From Verrucomicrobiaceae bacterium (lineage in GTDB: Bacteria; Verrucomicrobiota; Verrucomicrobiia; Verrucomicrobiales; Akkermansiaceae), in assembly GCA_027487355.1 (NCBI GenBank), contig JAIYDT010000002.1, positions 1 to 44,691 on the forward strand: a stretch of 44,691 bases of DNA, in the 5' to 3' direction. Both the position numbers and the translations under genes were made by a program. Position 1 is the first letter of the stretch; each line of letters opens with the position of its first letter. Below the pieces are notes generated by a model. That model was not told the origin of the DNA and ran no database searches. It saw nothing but the letters and a program-made list of their open reading frames with translations. Positions 23,931 through 38,049 of the stretch are shown here, in pieces.

Positions 23931-25187
23931 TCAATCCAAGCCGTCGCGCGCGCCCCAGAATTCCTTCATTTTCTGTTCCATGACTGCTTCGATGTAGGCC
24001 CTTGCCATCGCTTGCTCGATCACGGCCTTGGCCGTTTCGCCGGTCTTGTTGGTCGCCTTGAGTTCGGGATCACCGGCATGGCCGAAGATTTCCCACATCA
24101 GGCGCTTCTTTGATTCCTCTATTTCGGAAAGCGACTTCCCAAGTTCGTCACGCACCTGAGCCCGGATCGCTGGTTCGGCGAGGTAAAGCTCGAAGGCGGC
24201 CTCATCCCCCTCCTTGTTTCCGTCCTTCTCCGTCCATTGTTTCCGTAGGGAATCCTTCGTCGCGCCGAGAATCTTTTTCCAGGTATCGCCCGTCGCCAGC
24301 GAGTTCCCAACTTCGGCGGTGTAGGGCCTCGCGAACCCTCGCAAGGCCGGCCGCTGCTCCTTCAGAACGGACTCCAGTTTCTCCAGGTCCGCATCTCCGG
24401 TCTCCACTGCATCCACCACTGCCTGGAAAACCTTCAACCGAAAGGCTCTGGTGTAGACGCCGGCATCGGCTTGTTTCGCTCCTTCCGTGCTCCATCCTTT
24501 GGAAATCCCGGTGATCGCTTCCTTGCCGGGATCGATCTGGAACTGGCGCAGTTCCAGCACCCGGACTTCTCCGCTGTCCGAGGTGATGGACTGTCGACTC
24601 ATCAGGCCGGTCTCCCGGCTGATGGTCAGAAGCCCCCACTTGGCGGTTTCGAACGTGACCGACTTGTCGTCGGACGCCTTCACCGCAGCCCCCTTGACAT
24701 CGGATTTCCACGTCGGCTCGTTCCTGGGTCGGATGCCGATGGTTGGCAGAATCCCATCCTTGGTGATCCACATGGAGGCCACGAATTGCCGACCACCCTC
24801 CTCTTCCTTTTTCGTCGGATTCGTCAGACACTTCGACGCCAGTCCCGCTAGACTATTGAGCTCGGTCGCCACCCCTTTGACGCGACTGATGCCCCCTCCT
24901 GAATCGGTGTATAGTTCATCCTCCACGGTATTCCAAAGCTTCGCTTCCATCGCATTCCCATCCTTGGTCACCGTCATGTGAAGCGCGGAAAGCCCGGATC
25001 CCTTGTCCATCCCAAGGGTGACGTCCAGGCTCTTTCCCGGACCTTCCGAATGGTAAATGGCCGTAAAACCGAGATGTCCGGCGTAAGTGGAGGAAAGCTC
25101 CTCCACCCATTGTTCCGGAGTGACCGGAGCCGCCAATCCACGTGCAGTCAGCAAGCAAAGGACCAACAAAGTTTTCAGGGATGTCAT
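23931..25187 (-). CDS. Secreted hypothetical protein, 418 aa
   Basis: A signal peptide is clear (MTSLKTLLVLCLLTARGLAAPV). The first 230 mature residues are beta-rich with repeated strands (LGFTAIYHSEGPGKSLDVTLG; LSALHMTVTKDGNAMEAKLW; GLLTISRETGLMSRQSI), resembling LolA-like or DUF outer-membrane-lipoprotein-sorting folds in style only. The last ~170 residues are helical and charged, with several Lys/Glu stretches. I do not recognise a family. It lies upstream of rplQ's terminator and appears monocistronic. Confidence 0.65.
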   Translation of the reverse strand: MTSLKTLLVLCLLTARGLAAPVTPEQWVEELSSTYAGHLGFTAIYHSEGPGKSLDVTLGMDKGSGLSALHMTVTKDGNAMEAKLWNTVEDELYTDSGGGISRVKGVATELNSLAGLASKCLTNPTKKEEEGGRQFVASMWITKDGILPTIGIRPRNEPTWKSDVKGAAVKASDDKSVTFETAKWGLLTISRETGLMSRQSITSDSGEVRVLELRQFQIDPGKEAITGISKGWSTEGAKQADAGVYTRAFRLKVFQAVVDAVETGDADLEKLESVLKEQRPALRGFARPYTAEVGNSLATGDTWKKILGATKDSLRKQWTEKDGNKEGDEAAFELYLAEPAIRAQVRDELGKSLSEIEESKKRLMWEIFGHAGDPELKATNKTGETAKAVIEQAMARAYIEAVMEQKMKEFWGARDGLD

Positions 25188-28790: not shown

Positions 28791-29789
28791 TCAGTGCGCG
28801 GCGTTCTTGATCAGTTGCTCCCCGAGAACCTTCAAATCCTCGACCGGAATCGCGAAGCTCTGTGCTCGGTCGGCTCGTGCGATGTTCATGCCGATGCAGC
28901 GGCCCTCAAGATCGAGAAGCGGGCCTCCGACGGACTCCTCATTTCCGAGGATATCATGCTGGATGATTCTGGGAAATCCGGTGCGGCGCTGGGAAAACCT
29001 GCCGCTCATCTGATCATTGCGTGATTCCGCGACGAAGAGTTCCCCTTTGGCGGCAAGTCGCACATCGAAGACCTGCTCTTTCCCGGCCCGCTTGATGCTG
29101 ACCTTCACCAAGGTCCCTGCCTTTTTGTCCTTCAGGAACTCAGACATCTGCTCGATCTTGGAGACCTTCTTGCCATCCAGGGCCGTGATCTGATCGCCCT
29201 TCTGAAGCCCCGCTTCCTGCGCGCCGCTTTTTTCGTTCACGGCCTCGATCTCAAGTCCCTTGGAATCCTTTTTCAAAATGACCCCGAGGGCCGCTCCACC
29301 CGAGGCCGGAATCTCGCGGGTCTTGGCACTGATGATGCCAACCAAGGCACGACGTCTCGTGGTGCTTGACGCGCCATTCGCCACCACCCAGGTGCCCTGG
29401 GGCAGATCGGCACTTGGCGCATAGGAAACGGGAAGCAGCCCCTGGGCATCGGCCTTGATCAGGGCCACATCCCAGGTCGGATCCGTAGCCACCACCTTGG
29501 CGTTGTCATACTTCGTCTCGTTCACGATCACCGAAAGCGAGCTGATCTTCTGAACCTCGCTGGCCTTGGTCAGGATGTAGCCGTCGGCAGAGATCACGAC
29601 GCCGTAACAGAGGTCCTTGCGCCCCTCCCGTATCACCGCGCTGGAACGCTGCAGGACGGCGCGTTGGTCCTCGAAGATCGAGACCACGGCATCACCGTTC
29701 TTGCGAAGGTCGCCTTCCAGGCTCTGCACACCGTAGCTGGCGGTCGTGAGGACAAGTGCCAGCAGAATGGGGGAAAATCTAGCGTTCAC
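28791..29789 (-). CDS. Secreted HtrA-like pseudoprotease with PDZ inserted in the protease fold
   Basis: 332 residues with a signal peptide (cleavage near ASYGVQS). The first half follows trypsin-like HtrA: YGVVISADGYILTKASEV, where the catalytic His position is Ser77, then DPTWDVALIKAD with Asp107 kept. A WVVANGASSTT / GIISAKTRE stretch leads into a PDZ domain (about 165-255: LEIEAVNEKSGAQEAGLQKGDQI). After it comes GNEESVGGPLLDLEGRCIGMNIARA, which matches the GNSGGPL..G.VIGIN segment normally before the PDZ; Val287 replaces the catalytic Ser. So the enzyme is inactive and its PDZ appears inserted inside the protease domain. It overlaps the stop of the active protease gene by 11 nt and is co-transcribed with it. 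Confidence 0.82.
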   Translation of the reverse strand: MNARFSPILLALVLTTASYGVQSLEGDLRKNGDAVVSIFEDQRAVLQRSSAVIREGRKDLCYGVVISADGYILTKASEVQKISSLSVIVNETKYDNAKVVATDPTWDVALIKADAQGLLPVSYAPSADLPQGTWVVANGASSTTRRRALVGIISAKTREIPASGGAALGVILKKDSKGLEIEAVNEKSGAQEAGLQKGDQITALDGKKVSKIEQMSEFLKDKKAGTLVKVSIKRAGKEQVFDVRLAAKGELFVAESRNDQMSGRFSQRRTGFPRIIQHDILGNEESVGGPLLDLEGRCIGMNIARADRAQSFAIPVEDLKVLGEQLIKNAAH

Positions 29790-30759
29790 CGAGTTTCATT
29801 TCGAGGGTTTCGAGCTTGCCCTTCTTGAGCAGTTCAAGGGCCATCTTGTCTCCAGGAGCCATTTCTTTGAGCATGTTCTGGAGATCTTCGCGTGATTGGA
29901 GCACCTTGCCGTTCAGCTTGAGGAGCACGTCCCCCTCCTTGAGGCCGGCTTTTTCGGCCGGGCTTTCACGGCCCACCTTCGTCACCTTCAGGCCACCTTC
30001 AGGACGAGGCTCGGTGGCCAGTCCGAGGAAACCCTTGCCCGTCTCAGGCTTCTTTGCAAATGGACCGTCACCGACAAACTCACCCCGCGTCATCTCGTCC
30101 CAATGAGTCAGGAACTCATGCATCGGCACATGCATGTTCTGCGCCAGCACCTCACCCACCCGCGAGTGGATTCCGATCAAACGGCCCTCGAGATCGAAGA
30201 GAGGACCACCCGAGTCGCCACCAATCAGGGTGCAGTCCGATTGGATCGTCGTTTCCGCCATGCGAACCAGCCTGCCAAGCCTGACCACCGACCCGCGCTC
30301 CTTGTCAAAGCCACCGGAGTGCCCGAGCGAGAACACCCAATCACCCAGCTTCGTGCTGCTCTCACGATCCATCACCACGAACGGATAGGTCCCCTTTTCC
30401 AGAATCCTCACCATCGCGCAGTCGGTGGTGGACACGAGGCCCATCGACTCCGCCTTCAGCCGCTTGCCATCCTCCAGGATCACCGTCAGCTCCTTGCCCA
30501 CCCCTCCGGCAACGTGCGCAGCCGTGAGCACCAGTCCCTCGGCTGACACGATCACCCCACTGCCGCTGCCTTCGCCAATGTCGATGCAGACGGTGGCTTC
30601 CCTCGCCTTTGGCAGCACTGAGGTCAGCGTCTTCTGGATGGCCTCCAGGTCCTTGCGGTTCTCGGGTGCCTTCTTGTCGTTGAAGTAAGGCCGGTCGGGT
30701 GCGGCCAGCGCCATGACAGGCAGAACGGCCAGAAGGAGGATTGGGTGAAGGTTCGACAT
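29779..30759 (-). CDS. Secreted HtrA-like serine protease with PDZ
   Basis: Start at the ATG at 30759 (MSNLHPILLLAVLPVMALAAP, signal peptide), 326 residues. Triad is complete: His82 in LTAAHVAG, Asp113 in STTDCAMVRI, Ser183 in GGDSGGPLFDLEGRLIGI. One PDZ domain (about 235-320) ends the protein: GGLKVTKVGRESPAEKAGLKEGDVLLKLNG. It is a periplasmic S1C protease for quality control or signalling. The next gene encodes an inactive relative and overlaps by 11 nt, so the pair may act as a complex or the inactive one as a decoy or regulator. Confidence 0.9.
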   Translation of the reverse strand: MSNLHPILLLAVLPVMALAAPDRPYFNDKKAPENRKDLEAIQKTLTSVLPKAREATVCIDIGEGSGSGVIVSAEGLVLTAAHVAGGVGKELTVILEDGKRLKAESMGLVSTTDCAMVRILEKGTYPFVVMDRESSTKLGDWVFSLGHSGGFDKERGSVVRLGRLVRMAETTIQSDCTLIGGDSGGPLFDLEGRLIGIHSRVGEVLAQNMHVPMHEFLTHWDEMTRGEFVGDGPFAKKPETGKGFLGLATEPRPEGGLKVTKVGRESPAEKAGLKEGDVLLKLNGKVLQSREDLQNMLKEMAPGDKMALELLKKGKLETLEMKLGER

Positions 30760-30862
30760 CTCGGGGTCGGAATGGGGCACCTTACCTCCCTGTTCCGCAT
30801 CCCGCAACCCTGCGGATCAGATCATTCGAAGAAGGCTGCCTCGATGAAAGCGCCTCAGAGTA

Positions 30863-31465
30863 TCATGCTCGCCTGCGAAAGATCGCCAACCACTCCCGCC
30901 CCAGCCGTCCCGGGTATCCGGTCTCAGGCACCCAGCCTTCAACAAACTCAAACCAAGGCTCCAACCCTTTAAGGATCTCTTCCTTCGTGGCCCCAAACGG
31001 AGGCCCCTGCCCTTCCTCACCCGGTTCATTTGGCGTCAAGAAAAAAACTCCGCACAACCACCCTGCGGGCCTGACCAGCGCCCCCGCCGCCTCAGCATAC
31101 CTGGGACGGTCCGCTGGATCGATCGCGCAGAAGCAAGTATGCTCCCACCATCCTGAAACGCCCTGCTCCGGCCACCAACTGCGATCGAACAAATCCGCGT
31201 GCCGATAGACCTCACCTCCGGCTTTCTCGAAACGGTCCGCCGCCTCCACCGCCGCAGCCGATAGGTCCAGCCCGATCACCGGCACTCCCATGCGCGCAAT
31301 TTCCCGCACGTCATGGCCGAATCCGCAGCCCGGCACCAACACTGGTCCCCCACCCCAGACCGGCTCCGCCTTCCAGCGGGACATCAGCTCGATCAGCGGT
31401 GGAGCCGCCTCCCCCTTCTCCCAAGGCGTGTCTCCCTGCCGGTAGCGCGCTTCCCAATCGGTCAT
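30863..31465 (-). CDS. SAM-dependent methyltransferase, TPMT-like
   Basis: Start taken at the ATG at 31465 (MTDWEARYRQGDTPWEKGEAAP), 200 residues; ATG at 31471 and 31483 are near alternatives. WEARYRQGDTPWEKG at the N-terminus is typical of thiopurine methyltransferase-like proteins. SAM-binding: VLVPGCGFGHDVREIARMG (about 44-62) then VIGLDLSAAAV. The C-terminus GREWLAIFRRR closes the fold. Substrate unknown, possibly thiol, selenium or tellurium compounds in this family. It lies 37 nt downstream of the TPM-like genes on the same strand. Confidence 0.85.
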   Translation of the reverse strand: MTDWEARYRQGDTPWEKGEAAPPLIELMSRWKAEPVWGGGPVLVPGCGFGHDVREIARMGVPVIGLDLSAAAVEAADRFEKAGGEVYRHADLFDRSWWPEQGVSGWWEHTCFCAIDPADRPRYAEAAGALVRPAGWLCGVFFLTPNEPGEEGQGPPFGATKEEILKGLEPWFEFVEGWVPETGYPGRLGREWLAIFRRRA

Positions 31466-31502
31466 CCCCATTTCTCGCGCCACGACTCCCGCGAGTCAAT
31501 CG

Positions 31503-32522
31503 TCAGGAACGACTCAGGTCATCCGGCACCTGATCGCGCTGCTGGGCGGGCGAGACCGAGGCATTCGCGAAGGAAATCACCGCCCCAATCCCCGCGCCAT
31601 GATCCCCACCCAAACGCGGCTCGACCTCGACCTCAGGAAAGCGATTTCGGACCCTCTGACGCAGCCACACGTTCATCGAAAACGCCACCACGATCCCCCC
31701 AAAAAAAACCATTCCCGGCATCCACCAACCCGGCGGAATCATCTTGTTCAGGCGCTCGGAAGCCGTTGGAACCATCGGTTTCGCCTCCGGCTCCTCATTT
31801 GTCGAGAGGATGCCCGCAGGAATCGCGGCCCCAGAAAGCAAACGCTCCACCCAGTAGAGCCGGATCGACATCTGCACGGAAAATGCCTCCAGTTGGTCCA
31901 CCGCATCGGCCTTCTCCATCGACTTGATGACCGAACTCTGCAGTACACGTTTCTGCTCCAGACCCGACACCGTATCGGTCAACGACGGGCTCAGATACAA
32001 TACCGACCGCTGGGGCGCCCCGAGAAAGTAGCAAACCACCGCCGCCTGGCGCCCGGTGGAATAGAGCCGCTCCGTGAGTTCCTCTACCCGCACCTCGCCC
32101 GGGATCTCCTGGTCCATGCCGAAGACATAAACAATGAGTTCAATCGATGAATCCGTCGCATGTTGATCCAGAAGCGCCAGACGATCCCGATATTGCTGGG
32201 ACGACAACAGCTTCTGCGGATCGATCAGCAGGGACTTAGGACGCTCGTTGAAATAATCGCTCAGGAATGCCTCCGGAACCTGTGGGGGAGGAGTTGGATC
32301 GACCGCCAATTCCCCGGCAGTAGGCCTCGGAAGCGGTTCCTGCTTTTCCGCTGGTGGCTCTCCCGCTGGAACTTCATCGGTCAGCAGCAAGCTGCCCGGA
32401 ATCCATCTCCCCGACTTCACTGCCGCTCGGTCGGCCTCCTCCCAAGCCGGCAGCGCAGACTCAACTGTCGAGGCCCTCAACGAGGAAACTACAACGTAGG
32501 CGATCAAAAGGCCGCGCTTCAT
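31503..32522 (-). CDS. Membrane protein with TPM-like domain
   Basis: 339 residues. An N-terminal signal-like segment (GLLIAYVVVSSLRAS) and one C-terminal membrane helix (WMPGMVFFGGIVVAFSMNVWL, about 270-290). Between them lies a Pro-rich linker and a domain with LLSSQQYRDRLALLDQHATDSSIELIVYVFGMDQEIPG and AAVVCYFLGAPQRSVLYLSPSL, which resembles the TPM/Psb32 fold seen in the adjacent gene. Function unknown. Start overlaps the upstream stop by 4 nt, so the two products probably act together in the envelope. Confidence 0.65.
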   Translation of the reverse strand: MKRGLLIAYVVVSSLRASTVESALPAWEEADRAAVKSGRWIPGSLLLTDEVPAGEPPAEKQEPLPRPTAGELAVDPTPPPQVPEAFLSDYFNERPKSLLIDPQKLLSSQQYRDRLALLDQHATDSSIELIVYVFGMDQEIPGEVRVEELTERLYSTGRQAAVVCYFLGAPQRSVLYLSPSLTDTVSGLEQKRVLQSSVIKSMEKADAVDQLEAFSVQMSIRLYWVERLLSGAAIPAGILSTNEEPEAKPMVPTASERLNKMIPPGWWMPGMVFFGGIVVAFSMNVWLRQRVRNRFPEVEVEPRLGGDHGAGIGAVISFANASVSPAQQRDQVPDDLSRS

Positions 32523-33181
32523 GGAGTCTCCTCCCCATTCCCCGGTACGCCGGAATTTTCAGTCCTGCGGCCACCCCGGATCTTCTGGGCCTGCTCATCG
32601 ATCTTTGCGGGCCTTGAGACCTTTCGTTCGAAACGCGCAGGATCACGACGCGCCTGCCGACACCGCTTCTTCAGAATGATCCTCAACTGCTCGATTGCCT
32701 TCACAAGCCCTTCGGCATGACGCCCCTCCAACCAATAGGCATGGGCACGGGCCAGGCATTGAAAAGTGTCCTCCTCATCCAAAAGGGCGTCCAGCGCGTA
32801 GCCGAACGAAATCCCCGCCGACTTCGCATCGGCGTCCATCACCAGCAGGATCGCCGAACGATTGCCCCGATCCGATGGCACATCCTCAAACTTCGCCCGA
32901 TTCAGAAACCAGAAGCCGAACTGCCGTAGATTGGCCATTCCGCCGAACGATCCCGTGTGCACCGCCACGAACAACTGCGGGAACTGTCGATTGAACCGCT
33001 GCATCGCGGACTGCAACCGCCCCTGTTCGTCACGGCGCATCAAGCCCGCCGTGTCCGATAGGGTTCTCAAATGAAGATCCTCAGCACCATAGACCTTGTC
33101 AGCATCCGCCATCGTGAATCCACAATGCGGACAACCATCGGCCGCCCGGTGGATTTTCTGCACGCATCTGGGACACTTCAT
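32519..33181 (-). CDS. Zinc-ribbon plus TPM-domain protein
   Basis: 220 residues. The first 22 residues form a zinc ribbon (KCPRCVQKIHRAADGCPHCGF, CxxC twice). Residues about 45-170 look like a TPM (TLP18.3/Psb32/MOLO-1) domain: GLMRRDEQGRLQSAMQRFNRQFPQLFVAVHTG, NRSAILLVMDADAKSAGISFGYALD, LVKAIEQLRIIL. The C-terminal 50 residues are basic and disordered. TPM proteins occur in photosystem repair and in membrane stress; the role here is unknown. It begins the three-gene leftward unit ending with the methyltransferase. Confidence 0.75.
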   Translation of the reverse strand: MKCPRCVQKIHRAADGCPHCGFTMADADKVYGAEDLHLRTLSDTAGLMRRDEQGRLQSAMQRFNRQFPQLFVAVHTGSFGGMANLRQFGFWFLNRAKFEDVPSDRGNRSAILLVMDADAKSAGISFGYALDALLDEEDTFQCLARAHAYWLEGRHAEGLVKAIEQLRIILKKRCRQARRDPARFERKVSRPAKIDEQAQKIRGGRRTENSGVPGNGEETP

Positions 33182-35341: not shown

Positions 35342-37180
35342 TTACGGATTGTAGGGCTTGATGGAGATGACCTTGAGGGTCTGCTTGCCGTCGGTGACGG
35401 GGTCGTGGGCCTCGACGGTTTCGCCGACCTTGCGGCCGAAGAAAGCGGCGCCGAGTTCCGAGAGATAAGAAAGGTGGTTCTTTTCCGGATCGGAATCCCA
35501 GGCTCCAAGGAGGTTGTAAACCGTTTCCTCGCCCTTGTCGTTGGCGACCGTAAGGATGGTGCCGATGTTGGCGAAGGAGGCGTCCGCGCCCTTGAAGTCG
35601 GTGCCCCGGGCGCGGTTCACTTCCTTCTGCAGTTCGGTCTTGCGGTTGTTGAGATACTTCTGGTGGTCCTTGGCGGACTTATACTCGAAGTTCTCACGAA
35701 GGTCGCCATGCTCGCGCGCCACCGAGATCTCGCGGGTGTTCTGAGGGATGCGATTGCGGATGATGTCGTCCAGCTCGGTCTTCTTGCGTTCGAGGCTTTC
35801 CCAAGAAACAAGGAGGTCTTCCTCGCGCTTCGAGGACTCGCCTGAGACGAGTTCGCCTGTCTCGGGCTTGGCCTTGATGACGCGGGCCATCAGGGACTTT
35901 TTCTCAAGCTCACCGAAGACCGCGCACTCAAGCATGCGGCGTGCGAAGTTGCGGGCCTCGTTGACGTCCATGATGCTGACCAGATCGCTGAGCAGCTTCT
36001 TATCCTCGGTGAGGAGGGTCTGGAGGCGCGATGTCTTGCGGGGACCGTCGGCAAGGTGGTCGTTTTCGAGAAGGTTGAGGATCGAGGCGCCGACCTCCGG
36101 GCTGAAGACGTCCTGCGAAGCGCTGGAACGCTCACGGCAGATCCAGATCAGCGCGTCCGGGCCCAGGGCACGGCGGGCGATGGCAGAACGGAGGTGAACG
36201 GACAGGGCAGGAAGCTCATTGCGCTCGACCAGAAGGCGGGCGATTTCCGTGACACCACGCGCACCGACGCGGTCAAAGACCTGCACGATGCGCTCGACCC
36301 AGCCGTCACCGAAGGCAGCCGGGAAAGCTTCGTAAATGGTGCGCTGGCGGATCGAGGGAAGCTGTCCGATTTCATCCGCAAGGCGCTGGGCCTCCACGGT
36401 CTGGAGCATGTCGGAAATCCGCACGGCGGTGGGATCGAGTTCGAGGGCCTTGGAGTTTCCGATCACCTCATCGCGGGCGGCAAGGAGTTGGAGAGACTGG
36501 CCAAGCTGGACACGGGCGGACTTGCGGACGCCTTCGTCGATGTCGCTAACGAGTTTCTTGAGGGCGTCGAGATCGGCGTCGAAGGCGCGAATGTCGGCCG
36601 CGATGGACTCGAGCGCCTTGATCATGCCCTTCAGGTCGCGGGCAGCTTCGAAATCGGCCACCATCGCCTGGGCGGGGGTGCGGTCGCCATCACGAAGCAT
36701 CAGGGCCTCGGTGCGCTTCTGCGGGACGACCACCCGGCGGCTTTCGCGCAGGGCCTTTTTGGCATTGTCCCACCACTTGCGGAAGTCGTCAGCGGAGATC
36801 ACCGCGCCCGAAAGTTCCTTTTCGAGTGCGTCACCGGTCATTGATCCGCCGTGGCTTTCAAGGAGGTGAACGACCAGCTCGACGGGATCCTTTTTCGCAA
36901 GGGCGCGGAGCTCTTCGAGCTGCTCGACCTTCTTTGCGCGGAAATCGTCCGCCGGGATCCACTCGGTCTTTTGAATCGCGAATTGCAGTTCCATCGTCTG
37001 GGCGGCGGACCGCTCGAAATCGATGGTTACCTTTTTGCTGGGAAGATCCCAATCGATCACCTTACCAGCGCCCCAGGATTTGTGAAGACAGAAACTTCCG
37101 GGAGAAAGTTGGGTCAATCGCTCACCTACCGGCTTGGGAATGCGTCCAGCTTCAACCAAACGTGCCACATCAGAATGCAT
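35342..37180 (-). CDS. greA: Long GreA-type transcription elongation factor
   Basis: Start at the ATG at 37180 (MHSDVARLVEAGRIPKP), 612 residues. The C-terminal part (about 455-612) is a Gre factor: the coiled coil with IPQNTREISVAREHGDLRENFEYKSAKDHQKYL, matching DLSENAEYHAAK, then the FKBP-like domain (GTILTVANDKGEETVYNLLGAWDSD; SELGAAFFGRKVGETVE). The N-terminal ~450 residues hold a small beta domain (GSFCLHKSWGAGKVIDWDLPSKKVTIDF, Tudor/CarD-like) and a long helical repeat region. Such long GreA proteins occur in PVC bacteria such as Chlamydia. It rescues backtracked RNA polymerase; the extension's partner is unknown. Confidence 0.88.
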   Translation of the reverse strand: MHSDVARLVEAGRIPKPVGERLTQLSPGSFCLHKSWGAGKVIDWDLPSKKVTIDFERSAAQTMELQFAIQKTEWIPADDFRAKKVEQLEELRALAKKDPVELVVHLLESHGGSMTGDALEKELSGAVISADDFRKWWDNAKKALRESRRVVVPQKRTEALMLRDGDRTPAQAMVADFEAARDLKGMIKALESIAADIRAFDADLDALKKLVSDIDEGVRKSARVQLGQSLQLLAARDEVIGNSKALELDPTAVRISDMLQTVEAQRLADEIGQLPSIRQRTIYEAFPAAFGDGWVERIVQVFDRVGARGVTEIARLLVERNELPALSVHLRSAIARRALGPDALIWICRERSSASQDVFSPEVGASILNLLENDHLADGPRKTSRLQTLLTEDKKLLSDLVSIMDVNEARNFARRMLECAVFGELEKKSLMARVIKAKPETGELVSGESSKREEDLLVSWESLERKKTELDDIIRNRIPQNTREISVAREHGDLRENFEYKSAKDHQKYLNNRKTELQKEVNRARGTDFKGADASFANIGTILTVANDKGEETVYNLLGAWDSDPEKNHLSYLSELGAAFFGRKVGETVEAHDPVTDGKQTLKVISIKPYNP

Positions 37181-37272
37181 GACGCAAAAGATGGGAAGCA
37201 GCCGGACAAAACGCAAGGCATTCCAAGGTTAAATGCCTTTTGCGCCCGAATCCGCAGCGTTTCCGCCTGAAA

Positions 37273-38049
37273 TCAACGGACTTCGGATGGAACCGGAACG
37301 ACGCGCGGCCGGGGTGGGCGGACGCTTTCGATCTTTCCTTCGAGGACGTTGTCGAGCTGCTTGCGGACGACGCAGACCTTCCGGCGCCAGGCCTCAGGAA
37401 CGGCGGTGGTGTCTCCGTTCGCAGGCAAGTTGCCGTTGAAAATCAGGGCTTCCGCTGCGTCACGGATTTCCAGTTCATATCCGCCACCGTCGGGATTGCG
37501 CTTCAGCAGGACCTTGCCGGCATCCGTGACGAGGCTGGCGGTGCGGTTCTCGGGATTGGTCGAATACCAACGTGGCCCTTCGCCTGGGATCAGGGCGGCG
37601 CTGAGCTCAGGCCCCAAGCCAAGCGGACGGTTCAGAGGGGCCGAACCGAGGGTCATCTCAACCTCCAAGGCGCGACCGCTGCGAAACACCGCGAGTTTCA
37701 CCACTTCGCCGGGCTTTTTCAGTCGGAGCAGGGTGGCGAGCTGAGCCTCGTTGACGAGGAGTTGATCGCCAAACTTCCAGACGACGTCGAGCGGCTGGAG
37801 GCCACAGGATTCCGCCGGGCCTTTGGCATCGACGGTCTGGATCACGAATCCAATGCCCGTCGGCAATTCCGGAAGATGGGCGCGGGTGGCCTCATCGGGC
37901 TTTGCAACCCGGCAACCGAGCCAAGGAGGTCCCTCCACCAGCTTCTTCGGCTGGACCAGCGGCGGGTCTGCCGATGGTGCGACCTGATCGGCCTGCAAAC
38001 CCTGAAGCAGCAGGACGGAAAGGGCGATGTAGGGAAACACTTTCATCAT
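37273..38049 (-). CDS. Secreted PDZ-domain protein in ECF sigma operon
   Basis: 258 residues with a signal peptide (MMKVFPYIALSVLLLQGLQA). One PDZ domain (about 40-135): GIGFVIQTVDAKGPAESCGLQPLDVVWKFGDQ, LATLLRLKKPGEVVKLAVFR. The remaining C-terminal part is basic and Pro-rich with no recognised domain. Its start codon shares one base with the stop of the anti-sigma-like gene (TGATG), so it belongs to the sigma operon and might sense envelope proteins or present them to a protease. Confidence 0.75.
   Translation of the reverse strand: MMKVFPYIALSVLLLQGLQADQVAPSADPPLVQPKKLVEGPPWLGCRVAKPDEATRAHLPELPTGIGFVIQTVDAKGPAESCGLQPLDVVWKFGDQLLVNEAQLATLLRLKKPGEVVKLAVFRSGRALEVEMTLGSAPLNRPLGLGPELSAALIPGEGPRWYSTNPENRTASLVTDAGKVLLKRNPDGGGYELEIRDAAEALIFNGNLPANGDTTAVPEAWRRKVCVVRKQLDNVLEGKIESVRPPRPRVVPVPSEVR

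Follow-up and report, generated by a model that had tools for sequence, protein, structure and literature searches.

HtrA/Do proteases (DegP, DegQ, DegS and HtrA1-3; MEROPS family S1C) carry a trypsin-like domain with a His-Asp-Ser triad, followed by a C-terminal PDZ domain. In an ordinary HtrA protein, loop L3 passes the state of the PDZ domain on to the LD loop at the active site of the next subunit, and activation is hard to dissect because sensor and active site are present on every subunit. Residues Ser298-Leu307 of HtrA1 are termed L3, and neighbouring HtrA monomers touch through L3-LD contacts in which Arg302 is central (PMC5666011); a network of PDZ, L3 and LD is described for Deg1 (PMC3640471). 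Dead relatives are also on record. MamO of magnetotactic bacteria, a catalytically dead HtrA relative that the active MamE needs, activates MamE without catalysis (PMC4794232), and PflC of the Campylobacter flagellar motor is a periplasmic HtrA pseudoprotease with a non-catalytic role (PMC12222027). A regulatory PDZ embedded within a serine protease domain is known from Prc/CtpB of family S41 (PMC6686036). Here we describe a gene pair in a 44,691-nucleotide window, contig JAIYDT010000002.1 of a Verrucomicrobiaceae bacterium (assembly GCA_027487355.1), in which the gene for an HtrA-like protease of active type (A) overlaps the gene for a dead HtrA copy (B) whose PDZ lies inside the protease fold. 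An HtrA protein paired with a pseudoprotease is already known; the lineage-wide domain arrangement of B appears to be new. We propose, with a probability of roughly 55%, that A and B form a heteromeric periplasmic HtrA quality-control protease, in which A would cut while the L3-embedded PDZ of B would sense and switch A on.

Both genes lie on the minus strand. Gene A (29779..30759) encodes 326 residues from the ATG at 30759, the length given in a first-pass annotation of the window; an in-frame GTG at 30780, with a GGAGG just 5' of it (read by eye), would yield 333, and the protein may have that length instead. Pfam finds in A a single full trypsin-like domain (30169..30564; Trypsin_2, E 1.7e-24) and then a C-terminal PDZ (29791..30030; PDZ_2, E 1.2e-14). 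The catalytic residues, numbered from the ATG, are His82 (30514-30516), Asp113 (30421-30423) and Ser183 (30211-30213), and both triad and PDZ agree with the annotation on inspection of the reading frame and by Pfam. The triad is intact in all 184 distinct A homologues. Judged by its chymotrypsin-fold domain, its triad and its C-terminal PDZ, A is classed as an HtrA protease (S1C), of which a trimer or higher oligomer would be expected. Gene B (28791..29789) encodes 332 residues from a GTG start, over which the end of A extends by 11 bp (29779..29789); this overlap, noted from the outset, likely couples translation of the two. The N-termini of both proteins are signal-peptide-like and lack a lipobox, as read by eye. 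From alignment and model, B is assigned to the chymotrypsin-fold HtrA homologues: it has the same fold and is homologous across both barrels and the PDZ, and it differs in having no triad and in carrying its PDZ in L3 instead of C-terminal to the protease domain. Ser77 (29559-29561), in a TKASE motif, replaces the histidine, Val287 (28929-28931) occupies the position of the catalytic serine, and Asp107 (29469-29471) is retained, exactly as first read.

The Trypsin_2 match of B is split in two, with PDZ_2 (residues 167-245) in between. Residues 38-163 (29301..29678), which include TKASE, make up the first barrel and the start of the second; residues 166-246 (29052..29294) are the PDZ, with a conserved xLGV carboxylate-loop motif; and residues 271-320 (28830..28979; IQHD...GGPLLDLEGRCIGMNIAR) are the remainder of the second barrel. 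We compared B with a profile of 26 independent Do-type proteases from other bacteria. Residues 55-163 match profile positions 97-205, residues 174-256 match the profile's PDZ positions 292-374, and residues 271-329 match positions 206-266. The PDZ of B therefore sits between the consecutive protease positions 205 and 206. When it was excised in silico, the two halves of B merged into a single 126-bit match, against 77 bits for the best fragment of intact B and totals of 63-88 bits for three equally long control excisions. The first-pass placement of the PDZ between segments of the protease fold is thus borne out by the Pfam split, the Do profile and the excision. Residues Ser154-Ser163 of B align with Ser298-Leu307 of HtrA1, which puts the insertion at the end of L3; in the same alignment, Arg158 of B (29316-29318) falls on the L3 arginine Arg302.

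The annotator knew of no such insertion in described HtrA proteins, and in the open-access literature we likewise found no description of a chymotrypsin-fold or HtrA protein with a PDZ inside the barrel; open-access papers on HtrA pseudoproteases and on Akkermansia HtrA gave no mention of the A-B arrangement. B may have been noticed elsewhere, since domain databases would list it merely as 'Trypsin_2 plus PDZ'. Prc/CtpB have only the principle of the embedded PDZ in common with B, their fold and catalytic machinery being unlike its own. An S41-type enzyme, which would have a protease domain with a Ser-Lys dyad, was considered for B and rejected: the prc model matched in the PDZ part only, and Pfam reported no S41 domain.

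An AlphaFold2 model of B built on an 84-row alignment has a mean predicted local distance difference test score (pLDDT) of 92 and a predicted template modelling score (pTM) of 0.85. The C-terminal part forms strands at residues 272-278, 290-292, 298-305 and 311-315, in blocks of pLDDT 94-98. The last three of these belong to the SVGGPLLDL segment, whose membership of the protease fold the annotation had staked on structure prediction; judged by the confidence scores and the strand pattern, the model upholds that membership. In a Foldseek search of the PDB with this model, the 50 matches listed were all HtrA-family chains and none covers B end to end, the best template modelling (TM) score by query length being 0.37. 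Because the domain order differs, a low end-to-end TM score is expected; the Foldseek alignment is sequential and cannot follow a moved PDZ, so this value is not a score of the architecture. A profile search of PDB sequences gave the same pattern, parts of B matching separately.

Among 183 distinct B sequences, none keeps the full triad or follows the usual domain order. The histidine position holds Ser in 177, Thr in 4 and Glu in 2, never His; the serine position holds Cys in 52, Met in 46, Val in 45, Ile in 18 and other residues in the rest. A catalytic serine occurs in just one B (locus L112), which has no histidine. Several residues of the former site are nearly invariant all the same, namely Lys75 (83/84), Ser77 (177/183), Glu78 (80/84) and Asp107 (Asp in 181/183), so the site is not decaying and probably retains a structural, interface or ligand role. 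This specialisation, together with the frequency of Cys at the serine position and the precedent of MamO (PMC4794232), could be taken to mean that the dead site has been repurposed for ligand or metal binding or for other chemistry, the pairing with A being secondary. We consider that very improbable: a general base is found at the histidine position in 0 of 183 sequences, the residue in place of the nucleophile is mostly Met, Val or Ile, or else a Cys that has no histidine to go with it, and no known catalytic family matched B. A sensing subunit of A remains our preferred reading of B.

MamE and MamO are the nearest functional analogue of the pair, an active HtrA with a dead HtrA relative, and B, as a dead homologue tied genetically to an active HtrA, would correspond to a MamO-like non-catalytic partner. 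Unlike MamO, B has no TauE domain and bears a PDZ inside its barrel; the dead copies of magnetotactic bacteria arose separately. Membership of B in the MamO family was rejected, its score of 35.6 bits falling short of the NF040961 cut-off of 800. PflC differs from B in its usual protease-PDZ-PDZ order and its place in a structural lattice, and the part of its description available to us mentions no active partner gene.

The pair is widely distributed. Matches were found in 55 of 59 near relatives, mostly B-like along their full length, and within the genus B orthologues of 50-95% identity are usually accompanied by a second, divergent B. With a natural fusion as query, 194 of 260 genomes of the source's own family matched. 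In a sample of the phylum 37 of 388 matched, as did 50 of 294 in the phylum to which a Pirellulales genome belongs. Named records with a match include Akkermansia muciniphila, Roseibacillus, Luteolibacter, Haloferula, Rubritalea, Prosthecobacter, Blastopirellula and Phycisphaerae; the A-B pair itself spans Verrucomicrobiota (Akkermansia, Luteolibacter, Roseibacillus, Rubritalea) and Planctomycetota. The inserted PDZ, the altered residues and the gene pairing, whose conservation in homologues the annotation had proposed as a check, are all conserved. That B might be an artefact or a decaying duplicate, produced by misassembly, frameshift or pseudogene formation, can be given next to no credence in view of open frames across hundreds of independent genomes, conserved motifs and a high-confidence fold; on conservation, pseudogene and misassembly are ruled out.

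Akkermansia muciniphila has the A-B pair twice per genome. In one version found in Akkermansia (L099, L106, L109 and the named record L163), A is reduced to about 250 residues, with its triad present and its PDZ gone, while B keeps its PDZ; a second pair from the same genome, L108, has an A of the usual kind, PDZ included. The plant HtrA proteins Deg5 and Deg8 associate with one another. Both have the triad and the PDZ of Deg8 is C-terminal, unlike the state of B, and it is the Akkermansia A that resembles Deg5, an HtrA without a PDZ (PMC3640471). In Planctomycetota, the number of PDZs in the barrel of B rises to two in tandem (L272-L274, L276, L277) and to four (L275), and all of these arrays lie between the same two barrel halves. 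These six loci are mostly long A-B fusions of about 960-1150 residues (for example L275:744-4181).

Genomic association of A and B is nearly obligate. Among 155 distinct B genes, A lies upstream on the same strand in 134, is fused to B in 17 and lies directly downstream in one (L064); two of the remaining B genes are at contig ends, and one (L048) has no A nearby. Of the 153 B genes whose flanks are long enough, 152 thus have A next to them or fused to them; further fusions in Planctomycetota come on top of this tally. Both orders of fusion, A-B and B-A (L112, L149), occur, and fusion must thus have arisen more than once. At four loci (L153, L154, L155, L161), A and B are in frame with one stop codon between them, likely an intermediate towards or from fusion. 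With the genes almost always neighbours or fused, B probably serves A as an integral sensing subunit. The same pairing, fusion and dead site fit equally well with B as an inhibitor or latency subunit, filling the active site of A or blocking its trimer until the PDZ binds a ligand. This we judge improbable; no pseudosubstrate-like segment was identified in B, and the direction of regulation is something that sequence cannot give. The proposed heteromer of A and B is also consistent with the inheritance of the two proteins. In a tree of protease domains, A, B and outside Do proteases separate, with support of 99 for A and 99 for B, and across 34 pairs the distances among A and among B correlate at r=0.72, whereas shuffling never gave more than 0.26. 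Where a genome has two pairs, the partners generally go by type, type-1 A accompanying type-1 B and likewise for type 2.

The natural fusion L103, with halves of about 200 and 310 residues, was modelled with AlphaFold2 at a pTM of 0.88 over 521 residues. For halves of unfixed relative position we estimated a value near 0.6, so the packing of A against B is defined in this prediction. An unpaired alignment that pooled rows of A, of B and of fusions was dropped, the first barrel of B having fallen onto that of A, and was replaced by one of fusions and B rows.

The first-pass annotation had suggested that B regulates or scaffolds A, and this gains support from at least 17 fusions, the mirrored phylogeny and the loss of the PDZ from an Akkermansia A. 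The architecture of B, its dead site, the intact A, near-obligate pairing, repeated fusion and co-inheritance are established, and a packing of the two halves is predicted for the one natural fusion. Under the mechanism that we propose, A would be the catalytic subunit and B a dedicated regulatory subunit packing against it, both of them probably periplasmic, and the separate A and B of the window would bind each other. The PDZ of B may bind exposed C-terminal peptides or misfolded clients, and may share its ligands with the PDZ of A, as the annotation suggested; ligand binding would reposition L3 of B, Arg158 included, and this L3 would act on the LD loop of a neighbouring A and turn on its active site. 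Regulation would thus have the sign of activation and not inhibition. Arg158 is kept in 173 of 183 distinct sequences although B is inactive and has nothing of its own for the arginine to switch, and B is most simply read as a sensor whose PDZ drives L3 directly and acts on the neighbouring A. Conservation of Arg158 and the position of the PDZ exactly at L3 count for an allosteric relay from B to A.

An unlikely alternative that still deserves real weight gives B the role of substrate delivery or scaffolding, its PDZ holding clients and tethering them to A with no allostery through L3. Pairing and fusions are equally expected if so, the PDZ binding loop is conserved (Gly169 in 84/84 alignment rows and 181/183 distinct sequences), and the tandem arrays of Planctomycetota would serve tethering no less well than fine allostery; what delivery leaves unexplained is the precise placement of the PDZ at L3 and the L3 arginine kept in a dead protein. 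Several further points weigh against a sensing and switching B. One B gene with enough flank (L048:2886-3944) is the sole one with no nearby A, and its product may work alone or with a distant A. Shared species history explains part of the mirroring of the A and B trees. The confident packing concerns one chain of a distant relative (L103) rather than the window pair and was judged from confidence scores, and the support for a heteromer consists entirely of sequence comparison and structure prediction. Finally, since A retains its own PDZ in most lineages, the PDZ of B is no simple replacement for it.

Beside the A-B pair, a TPMT-like methyltransferase (30863-31483 in the window) and a TPM-domain/zinc-ribbon protein (32519-33181) recur at 13 of 86 loci, and rpoA and a photolyase likewise recur near it; these may possibly be a functional neighbourhood of the pair. 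Elsewhere in the window, a 258-residue open reading frame (37273-38049) has a PDZ-like stretch weakly matching both A and B, and a 624-residue protein (35342-37216) has GreA/GreB domains in residues 470-620 only, its long N-terminal part having no Pfam match. Two open reading frames, of 339 residues (31503-32522) and 418 residues (23931-25187), have no Pfam match at all. Scans for sigma-70 promoters and terminators gave nothing above chance, and an Rfam search of the window found no match.

More broadly, and at somewhat less than even odds, the pair may be a split HtrA spread across Verrucomicrobiota and Planctomycetota, in which a dead subunit with one to four PDZs hard-wired into L3 activates a living subunit in trans; nature would then have isolated the PDZ-to-L3-to-LD relay of HtrA enzymes. 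Sensor and active site are apparently on separate genes or fused halves, and each side of the relay could be tested separately. B would also be a lineage-wide case of a protease pseudoenzyme retained owing to a living relative, and its multi-PDZ forms indicate that the HtrA barrel tolerates entire PDZ arrays within loop L3. The pair occurs, moreover, in a gut bacterium that has been much studied, Akkermansia muciniphila.
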